Below, one piece after another: positions 3,198 to 53,175 of a stretch of DNA of 64,000 bases. The DNA is from an uncultured Anaerolineae bacterium. Lineage in GTDB: Bacteria > Chloroflexota > Anaerolineae > Anaerolineales > Villigracilaceae. The notes below the pieces were generated by a model, which was given only the letters and a program-made list of their open reading frames with translations, was not told the DNA's origin and did not search any database. Both the position numbers and the translations under genes were made by a program. Within the stretch, counting starts at the first letter, position 1. Every line of letters begins with the position of its first letter. The stretch lies in the NCBI GenBank assembly GCA_903875215.1, contig CAIQVH010000010.1, forward strand, positions 1-64,000, in the 5' to 3' direction.

Positions 3198-3271
3198 TGG
3201 GCGCGAAGGGACTCGAACCCCTGACCTCATGTGTGTGATACATGCGCTCTAACCAACTGAGCTACGCGCCC
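3198..3271 (-). tRNA. tRNA-Val (anticodon CAC)
   Basis: The minus strand folds as a full cloverleaf: acceptor GGGCGCG/CGCGCCC, D-arm GCTCAGTTGGTTAGAGC, anticodon stem CATGT/ACATG with loop ATCACAC (U33, anticodon CAC), and T-arm AGGGG-TTCGAGT-CCCCT. The discriminator is A. CCA is not encoded. The tRNA reads GUG valine codons. Confidence 0.96.
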
Positions 3272-49542: not shown

Positions 49543-49581
49543 AATAATTGGCGGATGAGAGTTTCTCATCCGCCAATTATT
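49541..49581. terminator. Long bidirectional terminator, recJ / crp-like gene
   Basis: An almost perfect 19-bp stem (AAATAATTGGCGGATGAGA and its complement) with flanking A and T runs. The crp-like stop codon (49577-49579) is within it. Confidence 0.9.
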
Positions 49582-50293
49582 TTGTTGGCCAGGGTGAATT
49601 CCAGGGCTGCGCCCATTGCTGAAGAACTTCATTATCCTTGATCAGAATGCGGCGGTTCTCCACGTCAATTGCACCGGAGCGCTCCAGCTCGCGCAGGGCA
49701 CGCGCCACCACCTCGCGGACGGTGCCAAGCCGCGCGGCCAGTTGATCTTGCGTCCAACGCGCGTTGGTCTCGCCGCGTAATTCTTCAGCCGGAATTTCGC
49801 TGATCAGGCGCGCCAGGCGATGCGGGATCTGAAAAAAAGCCATTTCGCTGACGTTCTTGACCAGGTGGCGCATCATGCGCGCCAGGTTTTGGACGGTTTT
49901 TTGCATAAATTCGGGATCAGTGCGCATCAAGTTCTGGACGGCGGCGGAATCAACGACCCAGACGTTGGTCGATTCGAGCGCTTCGACGTTGACGGGGTTA
50001 ATGCCGCCATCAAATACCGGGACTTCGTTGCACGTGTCACCTTCCTGCAGGACCCGAATGATGTACTGGCGGCCTTGCGGAGATATGCGGAAAAGCTTCA
50101 GGCTGCCGGTCTGAATAATGTGCAGGCCGGCACAGGGATCGCCTTCCCAGAAGAGGATTTCGCCGCGTTCATAGCCGCGCAGGGTAGTGGCGGCTGCCAG
50201 GGTTTGCAGGGATGTTTCACGCAGGCCCTGAAAGAATATATTGGTCTGAAGAAAAGGGAGCTTTTCAGCCGGGTCTACACTGAGGTGTTGCAT
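49577..50293 (-). CDS. Crp/Fnr-family transcription regulator
   Basis: The 238 residues have an N-terminal cyclic-nucleotide-binding fold (GEILFWEGDPCAGLHIIQTG, then SLKLFRIS) and a C-terminal winged helix (WTQDQLAARLGTVREVVARALRELERSGAI). There is no N-terminal Cys cluster, so it is not an oxygen-sensing Fnr. The ligand is unknown. TACAAT lies six bases before the ATG, suggesting a leaderless message. It is convergent with recJ and divergent from the lysC leader. Confidence 0.93.
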   Translation of the reverse strand: MQHLSVDPAEKLPFLQTNIFFQGLRETSLQTLAAATTLRGYERGEILFWEGDPCAGLHIIQTGSLKLFRISPQGRQYIIRVLQEGDTCNEVPVFDGGINPVNVEALESTNVWVVDSAAVQNLMRTDPEFMQKTVQNLARMMRHLVKNVSEMAFFQIPHRLARLISEIPAEELRGETNARWTQDQLAARLGTVREVVARALRELERSGAIDVENRRILIKDNEVLQQWAQPWNSPWPTK

Positions 50294-50299
50294 ACTTGC

Positions 50300-50305
50300 A
50301 TTGTA
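50300..50305 (-). promoter_or_regulatory. -10 box six bases from the crp-like ATG
   Basis: Minus-strand TACAAT with no ribosome-binding site between it and ATG 50293. Confidence 0.5.
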
Positions 50306-50447
50306 CCTGAAATCAGACAGTTTACGTCAATTAATCGGCGGCGGGCGTCAGCGGGTGTTTTTTTTCAGCTGCCGCAAAGGCCTGTGAACCGAGTCAGGTT
50401 CCAGGGCTGGCAAGGCTGAAGGTGTGGACTTTCCCTGGATTTTATGC

Positions 50448-50476
50448 TTGACGGATGCAAATCGCGGTGTTATAAC
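50448..50476 (+). promoter_or_regulatory. Promoter of the aspartate kinase leader
   Basis: TTGACG (50448-50453) and TATAAC (50471-50476) are exactly 17 bases apart. The predicted start is at or close to the leader-peptide ATG at 50487. The remaining spacer from 50294 to 50447 shows nothing else. Confidence 0.75.
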
Positions 50477-50486
50477 TGCGCGCAAT

Positions 50487-50564
50487 ATGAACCCGACTGC
50501 AGCGCTGCTGACCCTGACTACCAGCCCCTCCCGAGCAATCGGCGGGGTTTTGGTGTTTGGATAA
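50487..50564 (+). CDS. Candidate Thr-containing leader peptide for aspartate kinase
   Basis: A 25-codon frame, ATG to TAA, starts ten bases after the -10 box. It contains a Thr-rich run (LLTLTT, codons ACC-CTG-ACT-ACC) and a later AIGGVLV stretch. Size, place between promoter and terminator, and Thr content fit a leader peptide of the thrL kind, in a route that makes Thr. It has no Shine-Dalgarno sequence and would be read from the 5' end of the mRNA. Its expression is unproven. Confidence 0.45.
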   Translation: MNPTAALLTLTTSPSRAIGGVLVFG

Positions 50565-50626
50565 GAGCAGCCGGAAGGCCGGATCGTCCACACAACGCCC
50601 TGCAAAACCGCAGGGCGTTTTTTTTG
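50526..50626 (+). terminator. Candidate attenuator: upstream hairpin plus terminator before lysC
   Basis: A first hairpin pairs CCCC (50526-50529 area) with GGGG (50544-50547 area) and is followed by TTTT. A second, strong one pairs AACGCCCTGC (50594-50603) with GCAGGGCGTT (50610-50619), followed by a run of T. The 3' arm of the first (GCGGGGTTTTG) can instead pair with CAAAACCGC (50603-50611) and would break the terminator. Confidence 0.6.
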
Positions 50627-50643
50627 CTTCTAAGGAGAATTGT

Positions 50644-52077
50644 ATGACGGATAAAGCATCGAAAACCCTGGTGATGAAGTTCGGCGGTACATCGGTCGGG
50701 TCGATACAGGCCATGGCCGGGGCGGTGCAGATTGTGAGGGAGTCCTGTGCCGGGTGGCCGCGCGTAGTGGTGGTGACTTCGGCGCTTTCGGGTGTGACCA
50801 ATCTGTTATTAGAAAGCGCCGAGCACGCGGTGCGTGGCGATACAAGCCTGCTCGGCGAGGCCGAGCAGGCTTTGCTGAGCACCCATGCGGCGATTGCTGC
50901 CCAGTTGGTGCCGGACGCAACCCGCCGCGCCGCCGTCCTGGACGAGATTGCCAGGCTGATCCACTCGTTCGTGGAATTATGCCAGGCGATCTCGGTGCTG
51001 GGAGAATCAACCCCGCGAGCGCTGGACGCGGTGGCCTCGCTGGGTGAGCGAATGAGTGTGCGCCTGCTAGCGGCCGCCCTCGAGAGTGCCGGGATTCCGG
51101 CCAGGGCGGTGGAGGCGAGTGAGCTGATCGTAACCGATAACCGCTTCCAGAGCGCGCACCCAGATTTTGCGCTGACGACAGCTGCCACACGCCGGGGCCT
51201 GCTTCCGCTGCTGGAAGCCGGCCTGGTGCCGGTGGTGACCGGCTTCATGGGAGCGACGCGCGAGGGCGTGGTGACCACGCTGGGGCGCGGCGGCAGCGAT
51301 TATTCGGCCGGGATTCTGGGCGCGGTGTTGCCCGCCGATGACGTCTGGATCTGGACGGATGTGGATGGGGTGATGACTGCCGATCCGCGCATGGTGCCCG
51401 AGGCGCAGACTCTGCCGCAGATTTCGTATGGTGAAATCGCGGAGCTGGCGTATTTTGGGGCGAAGGTACTGCATCCGAAGACCATCCGCCCGGTGGTGGA
51501 AGCGGGGATCGGCCTGCGCATTTGTAATACGTTCAACCCGGCGCACCCCGGCACGCGCCTGGTGGCGAATGCCCAAATCGAACAGCCCCAAAAAGGCGAG
51601 AAGGTGGTCAAAGCGGTGACGGCCATCCGCAAACAGCGCCTGGTGACGATTGAAGGGCGCGGGATGTTGGGCGTGCCCGGTGTGGCGGCGCGCACCTTCG
51701 CCGCAGTTGCCTCGACAGGCACCAGCGTCCCGCTGATCACACAGGCCTCCTCCGAGCAATCGATCTGTTTTTCGGTGCCGGGCGAATCGGCTGAGGCAGT
51801 GCTCAATGCGCTGGAACAGGTCTTTGCGACCGAGATTGCCCAACGCGATATTGACCGCGTCTGGACGGGCGAGGAGGTCGCCATCATCACGGTCGTCGGG
51901 CACGGCACACGCAACACGCCCGGCGTGGCCGGAGAAATCTTCACCCGGCTGGGCAAAGCCGACATCAACGTGCTGGCAATTGCGCACGGGTCTTCGGATG
52001 TCTCGATCAGCATGGTCGTCAATTCTGCCGAAGCAGAAAAAGCGGTCAAGGCGCTGCACGAACTGGTTGTGCGCTGA
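50644..52077 (+). CDS. lysC: Aspartate kinase (monofunctional, tandem ACT domains)
   Basis: The 477 residues have the kinase signature VMKFGGTSVGSIQ, GFMGATREGVVTTLGRGGSDYSA and WTDVDGVMTADPR, then two ACT domains (about residues 310-477, VTIEGRGMLGVPGVAARTF and ITVVGHGTRNTPGVAGEIF). It phosphorylates aspartate as the first step to Lys, Met and Thr. The long form resembles the Thr-sensitive kinase part of ThrA. ATG at 50644 follows AAGGAG. It is followed by asd after 45 bases. Confidence 0.95.
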   Translation: MTDKASKTLVMKFGGTSVGSIQAMAGAVQIVRESCAGWPRVVVVTSALSGVTNLLLESAEHAVRGDTSLLGEAEQALLSTHAAIAAQLVPDATRRAAVLDEIARLIHSFVELCQAISVLGESTPRALDAVASLGERMSVRLLAAALESAGIPARAVEASELIVTDNRFQSAHPDFALTTAATRRGLLPLLEAGLVPVVTGFMGATREGVVTTLGRGGSDYSAGILGAVLPADDVWIWTDVDGVMTADPRMVPEAQTLPQISYGEIAELAYFGAKVLHPKTIRPVVEAGIGLRICNTFNPAHPGTRLVANAQIEQPQKGEKVVKAVTAIRKQRLVTIEGRGMLGVPGVAARTFAAVASTGTSVPLITQASSEQSICFSVPGESAEAVLNALEQVFATEIAQRDIDRVWTGEEVAIITVVGHGTRNTPGVAGEIFTRLGKADINVLAIAHGSSDVSISMVVNSAEAEKAVKALHELVVR

Positions 52078-52122
52078 CCCTGCAGCCTGTTGCAAAATTC
52101 AAATCAAAAAACCGGAGTTATG

Positions 52123-53175
52123 ATGAAACCCATCCCCGTTGCAATTCTCGGCGCGACCGGCTCGGTCGGCCAACGTTTTCTTGCCCTGCTCGATAATCAC
52201 CCGATGTTCAAGGTCGTGGCGCTGGCCGCCAGCGACCGCTCGGAAGGCAAACCCTACGGCCAGGCCTGCCGCTGGATCCTGGCTGACCCGATGCCGGCCT
52301 GGGCGAGTGAAATGACCCTGCTGCCTGCCGAACCACAGGCCCTGCAAGCGGCGCGCATCGTCTTTTCGGCCCTGCCTGCCGAACAGGCAAAAACCCTCGA
52401 ACCAGAATTTGCCCGCGCCGGATTCGCCGTTTGCTCAAACGCTTCCTCCTACCGGCGCGAAAGCGACGTTCCCCTGCTGCTGCCCGAAGTCAACGCCGAC
52501 CACATCCAGCTGGTACGCGCCCAACGACTGGCGCGCGGCTGGCAGGGCTGCATCCTGACCAACCCCAACTGCACCAGCACCGGGCTGACGGTGGCGCTCA
52601 AGGCGCTGGATCAGGCCTTCGGGTTGAAGCGAGCCTTCGTCGTCTCGCTGCAGGCGCTTTCGGGAGCGGGCTATCCGGGCGTGTCGTCGCTGGATATCCT
52701 GGATAACGTCATCCCCAACATCGGCGGCGAGGAGGAAAAAGTGGAATGGGAGCCGCGAAAAATGCTGGGGCAGCTGGAAAATGACGCCATCCGGCTGGCG
52801 GAGGTGAGATTTTCTGCCCACACCAACCGGGTCGCTGTGGTGGATGGGCATACCGTCTGCGTCAGCGTGGAACTGGGCCAGGAGGCCACCCCCGAGCAGG
52901 CCTGCCGCGCCCTAAGCAGTTACCAGGCTCCAGCCGCCGCCCGAAACCTGCCTTCCACGCCCGACCCGGTCATCGTCGTGCGTGACGAAACCGACCGCCC
53001 TCAACCGCGTCTCGACCGACTGACCGGCGGCGGCATGACAACCGTCGTCGGGCGGGTGCGGCCCGATCCGCTGCTGCATCTCAAATTTGTGGTGCTTTCG
53101 CACAACACCATCCGCGGCGCGGCAGGCGGCTCCATTTATAACGCCGAGCTGCTGGTGCGGGAGAATTTGCTTTAA
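52123..53175 (+). CDS. asd: Aspartate-semialdehyde dehydrogenase
   Basis: The 350 residues have the NADP site ILGATGSVGQRFL, the active Cys in ILTNPNCTSTGL, and SAHTNRVAVVDGH. The spacing and C-terminus fit the archaeal/fungal-type ASADH branch. It reduces aspartyl phosphate to the semialdehyde, the next step after the upstream kinase. ATG 52123 is five bases after GGAG; the ATG three bases earlier is too close. Confidence 0.95.
   Translation: MKPIPVAILGATGSVGQRFLALLDNHPMFKVVALAASDRSEGKPYGQACRWILADPMPAWASEMTLLPAEPQALQAARIVFSALPAEQAKTLEPEFARAGFAVCSNASSYRRESDVPLLLPEVNADHIQLVRAQRLARGWQGCILTNPNCTSTGLTVALKALDQAFGLKRAFVVSLQALSGAGYPGVSSLDILDNVIPNIGGEEEKVEWEPRKMLGQLENDAIRLAEVRFSAHTNRVAVVDGHTVCVSVELGQEATPEQACRALSSYQAPAAARNLPSTPDPVIVVRDETDRPQPRLDRLTGGGMTTVVGRVRPDPLLHLKFVVLSHNTIRGAAGGSIYNAELLVRENLL

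Follow-up and report, generated by a model that had tools for sequence, protein, structure and literature searches.

The lysC(-asd) genes of an uncultured bacterium of the order Anaerolineales are very probably controlled by a three-helix ribosome-mediated transcription attenuator whose leader peptide is leaderless or nearly so. The locus lies in the window, by which we mean the whole 64,000-nucleotide stretch analyzed here, taken from a genome of 3.77 Mb in 38 contigs. Attenuation by leader peptides has long been known, and leaderless versions are documented in Actinobacteria. Judged by comparison among relatives, what we describe looks like a genuine Thr attenuator, conserved and with a peptide that appears leaderless, and like a piece of a seemingly wider Anaerolineales layer. 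The frame, its Thr codons, the promoter spacing, the terminator, and the antiterminator complementarity are supported by that comparison, and we infer the transcription start site, translation, termination in vivo, and the amino acid response.

The layout of the locus (50448–50643) can be read directly: a promoter, an ATG without a Shine-Dalgarno (SD) motif, a 25-codon Thr frame, a hairpin, and a terminator precede lysC. A first-pass annotation had listed the promoter, an ATG within ten bases of it, the 25-codon frame with ACC-CTG-ACT-ACC, a hairpin with TTTT, and the terminator, all of which we see in the DNA. The leader ATG at 50487 is 10 nt past the −10 hexamer, and the Thr codons of the frame begin at 50496, 50511, 50517, and 50520. 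Hairpin 1:2 occupies 50513–50560, covering the Thr codons together with the frame's 3′ half, with TTTT at 50548–50551. The features, all on the + strand, are as follows.

50448–50476, +: sigma-70-type promoter, TTGACG (50448–50453), 17 nt, and TATAAC (50471–50476); from the sequence, relatives' promoters being alike
50483–50486, +: predicted transcription start (A, 50484 or 50485), for a 5′ UTR of some 2–4 nt; placed by the distance from the −10 box
50487–50564, +: leader peptide frame of 25 codons and a stop codon, MNPTAALLTLTTSPSRAIGGVLVFG, without an SD-like motif upstream; from sequence and comparison
50511–50522, +: control codons ACC-CTG-ACT-ACC (Thr9, Leu10, Thr11, Thr12); from sequence, aligned columns 34–42
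50513–50534, +: region 1, the 5′ arm of hairpin 1:2, overlapping the Thr codons; from folding, with weak 1:2 covariation
50539–50560, +: region 2, serving hairpin 1:2 as its 3′ arm and the antiterminator as its 5′ side; from folds and duplex tests
50542–50548, +: antiterminator core GCGGGGU, partner of GCCCUGC at 50597–50603 in the terminator 5′ arm; from duplex energy and folding
50570–50579, +: small hairpin, GCC GGAA GGC, directly following the stop codon and forming the tip of the antiterminator, with counterparts in many relatives; from folding
50594–50619, +: terminator hairpin 3:4, AACGCCCTGC-AAAACC-GCAGGGCGTT; from the terminator scan and covariation
50618–50625, +: terminator T-run, where the attenuated RNA is predicted to end; from sequence
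50632–50637, +: lysC ribosome-binding site AAGGAG; from sequence
50644–52077, +: regulated gene, a lysC-like aspartate kinase of 477 aa with its ATG at 50644 (TIGR00657, 412.6 bits; cut-off 208.7)
52120–53175, +: aspartate-semialdehyde dehydrogenase, asd (TIGR00978, 418 bits; cut-off 301.2)

Further antiterminator pairs join GUGU (50553–50556) with ACAC (50590–50593) and GGAU (50559–50562) with GUCC (50586–50589). The asd gene is probably the second gene of the operon, co-transcribed with lysC. A divergent gene for a CRP/FNR-family regulator (49577–50293, − strand) adjoins the lysC leader, and a tRNA gene at 3198–3271 (− strand) is the sole Rfam match in the window at gathering score.

A generic scan of 50200–50800 called no sigma-70 promoter, the −10 box ending in C, and found one terminator where 0.8 would be expected by chance, so the single sequence is insufficient by itself. 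The RNA from 50484 to 50627 folds at −58.9 kcal/mol, compared with −44.9 ± 3.9 for shuffled versions (z −3.55), and is more stable than 200 of 200 shuffles. With four Thr residues and a longest Thr run of two, the window leader is among the poorer members of its group. Neither Thr_leader nor any other Rfam leader family was matched at gathering score in the lysC leader, and no covariance-model match to a lysine riboswitch or T-box was found upstream of lysC.

We therefore turned to relatives, and aspartate kinase was present in 41 of the 61 genomes searched, the window genome included; those with the most similar enzymes are Anaerolineae/Anaerolineales metagenome-assembled genomes of Chloroflexota. 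The 66 parsed upstream regions comprised 46 of 48 loci of one set and 20 of 30 of another, the other ten being repeated contigs; L082 and L083, matches without a gene start, were left out of the parsed set. Filtering for a promoter and an ATG frame of 18–36 aa with at least two Thr recovered the layout in 52 of the 66, which bears out the kept frame and Thr codons that the first-pass annotation had proposed to look for. The 14 without a leader by this filter were seven of the second set (L021–L025, L027, and L029) and seven of the first (L055, L062, L065, L066, L070, L071, and L081); in L070 and L071 the contig ends just 264 and 48 nt upstream of the gene. Because the filter itself demands a promoter and Thr, a shuffle control was needed: a leaderless frame with at least three Thr occurred in 52 of 65 upstream regions, versus a mean of 0.75 and a maximum of 2 over 20 dinucleotide-shuffle rounds.

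L010 repeats L047, leaving 51 distinct leaders with peptides of 22–33 aa, a span in keeping with the kept peptide length also proposed as a check. In these, the gap from the −10 box to the ATG is 10 nt in 32, 11 in nine, 8 in nine, and 9 in one, and the promoter boxes are 17 nt apart in 46, 18 in four, and 16 in one. The −35 box starts with TTGAC in 52/52 parsed leaders, and an A stands at −3 of the leader ATG in 31 of the 32 with a gap of 10. In 51/51, the 17 nt inspected ahead of the leader ATG contain no SD-like 4-mer, while an SD-like motif lies within 45 nt before the aligned aspartate kinase start in 51/51, the span differing from the leader's 17 nt; the frame thus looks leaderless and lysC leadered. 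Spacing and SD absence are compatible, in 51/51, with an AUG no more than about 5 nt from a predicted RNA start. A permissive finder detected a terminator-like hairpin and T-run after the frame in 52/52 leaders.

Thr makes up 278 of 1343 internal leader residues (20.7%) versus 6.4% in frame +1; in frame +2, Thr falls outside the eight most frequent residues. In aligned codon columns 34–42, just before the hairpin loop, Thr is found in 44, 47, and 46 of 51 leaders. The first of these three Thr columns uses all four Thr codons, with entropies of 0.14, 0.52, and 1.84 bits at codon positions 1, 2, and 3; in the third, ACC accounts for 41 leaders, and position 3 varies no more freely than position 1. 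On the whole, the aligned sequences indicate that selection acts on the amino acid and not on the RNA alone. Lys sensing was dropped as a candidate, as Lys accounts for only 52 of 1343 internal residues.

The compensating base changes that the first-pass annotation had suggested looking for are present in both the terminator and the antiterminator helices. In the terminator, 94.5% of alignment cells are paired and eight of ten pairs have changed on both sides, a result reached by 0 of 500 shuffles. The antiterminator, formed by region 2 with the terminator 5′ arm, is paired in 88.1% of cells, with 30 double-change cells versus 10.8 ± 2.5 in shuffles and a covariation of 0.259 versus 0.172 (0 of 500 shuffles as good); slid registers lower pairing to 30–54%. 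Four of its pairs have changed on both sides, a number not above shuffles (234 of 500). As the sequences are related, none of these shuffle ranks is a probability. Pairing in hairpin 1:2 reaches 79.6%, covariation there is slight, and slid controls show equally many double changes.

In 41 of 51 leaders, the pairing energy of region 2 with arm 3 and its ten preceding bases ranked in the top 10 against 200 shuffles (2 of 200 for the window); the other ten leaders fell short of that mark. Exchanging partners between genomes, many of which share sequence, weakened the duplex from −23.9 to −20.0 on average. Three order-level leaders with a different terminator arm (L026, L028, and L030) show partial complementarity within the range of shuffles (91, 23, and 117 of 200). 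If arm 4 is omitted, region 2 through arm 3 forms one long hairpin in most leaders, tipped by the post-stop hairpin. The first-pass annotation had paired GCGGGGTTTTG with CAAAACCGC as the antiterminator; both are present, but the conserved partner is the terminator 5′ arm at 50597–50603. We rejected the earlier pair as a conserved element, since its CAAAACC lies in the terminator loop here and occurs in the terminators of 0 of 51 other parsed leaders; many relatives have GGAAA-type loops.

These elements suggest a switch in which the RNA would start 2–4 nt before the AUG at 50487 and a ribosome would initiate at the 5′ end without an SD site. With ample Thr-tRNA, the ribosome would reach the stop codon at 50562 and cover region 2, and the terminator (50594–50625) would end transcription. 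With scarce Thr-tRNA, it would wait at Thr9, Thr11, or Thr12 and cover region 1. Region 2 (50542–50562), thus freed, would pair with 50586–50603, before and within the terminator 5′ arm, blocking terminator formation so that lysC is transcribed. The idea of a ribosome held at the Thr codons, already put forward from the single sequence, is therefore retained in kind, with the amendment that the antiterminator would use the 5′ arm and the bases just upstream instead of the loop and 3′ arm.

Full-length equilibrium folding failed as a model of this switch: whichever codon of the window leader the ribosome occupied, the terminator persisted, and across all leaders no more than about one-fifth of Thr positions flipped. 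A terminator that wins at full-length equilibrium implies that the switch needs co-transcriptional folding, on which known attenuators are likewise held to depend. We replaced this model with the folding of partial transcripts, in which arm 4 is not yet made and the ribosome front edge lies 12 nt from the A-site. In the window leader, the modeled probability of region 2:arm 3 pairing was 0.00 without a ribosome, 0.50 at Thr9, 0.86 at Thr11, 0.88 at Thr12, and 0.00 at the stop codon. The same model gave a value above 0.5 at one or more Thr codons in 51/51 leaders and at the stop in none, the zero at the stop arising partly by construction, as region 2 is covered there. Without any ribosome, region 2:arm 3 is already favored in 22 of 51 partial transcripts, and arm 3 of the window has a pairing probability of 0.63 when any upstream partner is counted.

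Several other explanations of the locus have to be weighed. The same attenuator might be transcribed from a start further upstream, with the peptide translated from a 5′ UTR lacking an SD motif. This is unlikely: the start site is a prediction and the generic scan called no promoter, but TTGAC and −10 boxes stand at a near-fixed distance from the ATG in 51/51 leaders that have no SD-like motif. Like spacing before most of the hisG, aroH, and argG leaders found also argues against an upstream start, a point not fully independent because the finder demands a promoter. We regard it as very unlikely that the frame encodes a small protein or a nascent-chain arrest peptide whose C-terminus (REAFVLGQK-like) outweighs codon supply. 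Many relatives do keep this C-terminal part, yet it is encoded by the same RNA as region 2, whose pairing covaries. In L026, L028, and L030, whose duplexes do not exceed shuffles, C-terminus and terminator arm alike are different. Moreover, the most conserved codons are those for Thr, with synonymous variation.

Elsewhere, lysC is a usual target of the lysine riboswitch, which would favor a riboswitch, T-box, or protein-dependent antiterminator with an incidental small frame. Such an arrangement seems exceedingly unlikely given that the leader, devoid of Rfam matches at gathering score, consists mostly of coding frame and terminator and that its Thr enrichment is frame-specific. Terminator-like sites are expected by chance in the region, and the locus could in principle combine a chance frame with the ordinary terminator of an unrelated short transcript; the conservation of the frame, the covariation, the duplex energies, and the shuffle control are all contrary, and we give this reading next to no credence. 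The preferred reading thus remains a leaderless or nearly leaderless Thr attenuator.

Most relatives may sense a second amino acid. Internal Met occurs in 48 of 51 distinct lysC leaders, the window leader not being one of them, and constitutes 101 of 1343 internal residues, versus 6 of 517 in hisG leaders and 2 of 534 in aroH leaders (Fisher p ~1e-17, relatedness ignored). Thr and Met alternate at four aligned codon columns (e.g., 24 Thr and 22 Met), and the Met codons are positioned such that a ribosome waiting at them would free region 2 (mean 0.84 in the partial-transcript model). Part of the ATG-codon conservation could stem from CCA:UGG pairing in hairpin 1:2. This pattern suggests that most relatives sense both Thr and Met, each an end product of the pathway. 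Because Met codons share the control positions in most of them, the ancestral lysC switch probably read both. The window leader has Leu (CTG) at the relatives' Met positions and no internal Met, and so only Thr would remain sensed here.

We also sampled the phylum more broadly. From 30 loci, four were already counted and one (L278) was not located, leaving 25 new aspartate kinase genes. The lysC leader was found in six, all of them in the window's own family, and in none of 19 outside the order, among the best 30 of 145 matching genomes. With six of six finds in one family and 0 of 19 outside the order, the lysC switch may be confined to Anaerolineales.

Leaderless leaders also precede other amino acid genes. 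Weak matches in relatives to an RNA model of the lysC leader (R1) revealed leaderless, codon-rich frames before hisG, aspS, thrC, and an aminotransferase gene, Phe/Tyr-containing leaders before aroH, and Arg-containing leaders before argC, with identities checked for ten downstream proteins. R1 matched 99 of 400 genomes of the order and 16 of 298 of the class. These totals are not counts of lysC leaders, because many matches precede other genes and several (L142, L147, L149, L159, L161, and L163) have no leader; with many of 40 mostly weaker or secondary matches preceding other genes, R1 was rejected as a lysC-leader census. Within the window's own genome, TTGACN-N16..18-TANNNT-N6..11-ATG occurs 37 times versus 16 for the reversed pattern, and the 28 places read include frames before hisG, aroH, argG, an aminotransferase gene, and cysK. 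Three of the own-genome leaders are listed below.

L171, G000:C3:33130: hisG leader, His-rich MKLTFSLHHHHLICPLPDRRAG with a terminator; antiterminator, 0 of 200 shuffles as good
L198, G000:C31:165618: aroH (chorismate mutase) leader MKTTFRYFAFYFYYGSRLPAAGGDA (..FAFYFYYG..)
L197, G000:C31:142172: argG leader MCSKSFPRSRRPNPLLCEKVGFFLFG; antiterminator, 0 of 200 shuffles as good

Counting leaderless frames with at least three cognate residues, own genome included, we found leaders before 23 of 28 located hisG genes (His; shuffles 0.10; L199–L227), 22 of 27 aroH genes (Phe/Tyr; shuffles 0.45; L229–L258), 20 of 26 argG genes (Arg, as PRSRRP or LPRTRRP; shuffles 0.25; L315–L341), and 18 of 29 aspS genes (Asn plus Asp; shuffles 0.45), the −35 box of the last being often poor. 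By comparison, leuA had a leaderless cognate frame in 0 of 23 upstream regions (shuffles 0.35). The leuA gene may lie inside an operon, and this result therefore shows that the finder is not free with leaders and says nothing about Leu. From 30 loci each, those excluded because they were partial, fused, or under the cut-off were L208 and L228 (hisG), L250, L255, and L257 (aroH), L333 and L342–L344 (argG), and L364 and L369–L374 (leuA); L303 (aspS) was not located.

Terminator and antiterminator tests on five own-genome leaders and two relatives gave mixed results. Besides the hisG and argG leaders listed above, the antiterminators of two Asn/Asp-rich aspS leaders of relatives, L285 and L293, were matched by 0 of 200 shuffles; similar leaders (..FANNNNNDNDD..) include L288, L292, and L311, among others. 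The own-genome aspS frame is weak, and L296 was left out of the aspS antiterminator tests. A leader rich in Asn and Asp would fit an AspRS that charges both tRNAs. The quick test yielded no convincing antiterminator for the own-genome aroH leader (121 of 200 shuffles as good) or aminotransferase leader (26 of 200), nor did it support attenuation at cysK (30 of 200).

Other frames were noted along the way. The own-genome aminotransferase leader (L192, G000:C23:59192) is leaderless, Thr/Asn-rich, and precedes a class I/II enzyme. Leaders of this type occur in relatives at L131–L133, L135, L139, L141, L143, L144, L146, L150, L153, L155, L156, L164, and L167, the enzyme family having been checked for L192 and L132 and assigned for the others from a similar downstream protein start. 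At own-genome cysK (L177, G000:C9:43875), a short leaderless frame with two Cys codons (MFFPLQCSCMRRGS) is accompanied by a long hairpin. A Thr-rich leaderless leader, MSAQITFTATTTTTTQALLGRRRVGG, precedes threonine synthase at L160 (G165:C137). L191, L193, L194, L196, and others in the own genome are longer frames (DnaJ-like and Ffh-like by eye) with an ATG 6–11 nt past TTGAC..TANNNT, which suggests ordinary leaderless mRNAs.

Taken as a whole, the survey inclines us, with some reserve, to see leaderless leaders as a standard control of amino acid supply in Anaerolineales, standing in one genome before lysC, hisG, aroH, and argG and in relatives also before aspS, with several reading two amino acids that a single enzyme makes or uses. 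To our knowledge, Thr/Met at lysC, Arg at argG, and Asn/Asp at aspS would be new attenuator specificities if true.

The E. coli thr operon attenuator (thrL-thrABC; Rfam Thr_leader) senses Thr and Ile through a leader peptide with a normal ribosome-binding site. The lysC leader is like it in having a Thr-rich peptide, mutually exclusive 1:2, 2:3, and 3:4 helices, and a terminator before an aspartate kinase gene, and most relatives would share its two-amino-acid sensing, with Met as the second amino acid. Unlike thrL, the lysC leader has an ATG predicted to lie 2–4 nt from the RNA start, no SD motif, and no match to Thr_leader.

The first-pass annotation had called leaderless attenuation of lysC unusual, and unusual it is, but it has precedent in Actinobacteria (PMC11857589, PMC8079986) and looks common in Anaerolineales. 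As described in the portions of PMC11857589 drawn on here, transcription of Corynebacterium glutamicum ilvBNC starts a single nucleotide away from the start codon of its leader, and the peptide is made without a ribosome-binding site; the system resembles the lysC leader in combining a leaderless peptide with terminator/antiterminator control. That system differs in responding to branched-chain amino acids, in belonging to Actinobacteria, and in having been shown experimentally, whereas the lysC leader is known from sequence alone. The passages of PMC8079986 covered here report leaderless leader peptides in Streptomyces lividans (trpL, leuL, ilvL, metL, and thrL), so that several leaderless amino acid leaders share one genome, as here. 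The S. lividans thrL has two Thr, but it precedes thrS and its termination is called unclear; eight leader peptides are named in those passages, none for lysC, hisG, aroH, argG, or aspS (PMC8079986). Mycobacterial poly-Cys short ORFs (Canestrari 2020, as cited by later work) are leaderless and control the downstream gene through cognate codons as here, but involve Cys and Actinobacteria.

For Chloroflexi, the part of PMC3160421 consulted predicts leaderless genes in 4 of 12 genomes, at 4.7%. Among the titles listed in the literature searched, which did not extend to subscription journals such as the one with a 2010 attenuation survey, we found no leaderless or leader-peptide attenuator of Chloroflexota, and any claim to priority would be provisional. 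The sections of PMC4833913 and PMC9413887 at hand name no Chloroflexota attenuator, and the words Chloroflexi, Chloroflexus, Roseiflexus, lysC, and threonine are absent from PMC2965389.

Together, these findings would extend leaderless attenuation from Actinobacteria to another phylum and another gene, with the lysC switch appearing as one of a set in one bacterial order. Because the peptide would start at the RNA end, such leaders may offer a clean setting in which to relate leaderless initiation to the pace of transcription. Short leader peptides presumably escape ordinary annotation, and this layer may therefore be invisible in present genome records. Such leaders would also allow amino acid regulons of largely uncultured bacteria to be predicted from the DNA sequence.
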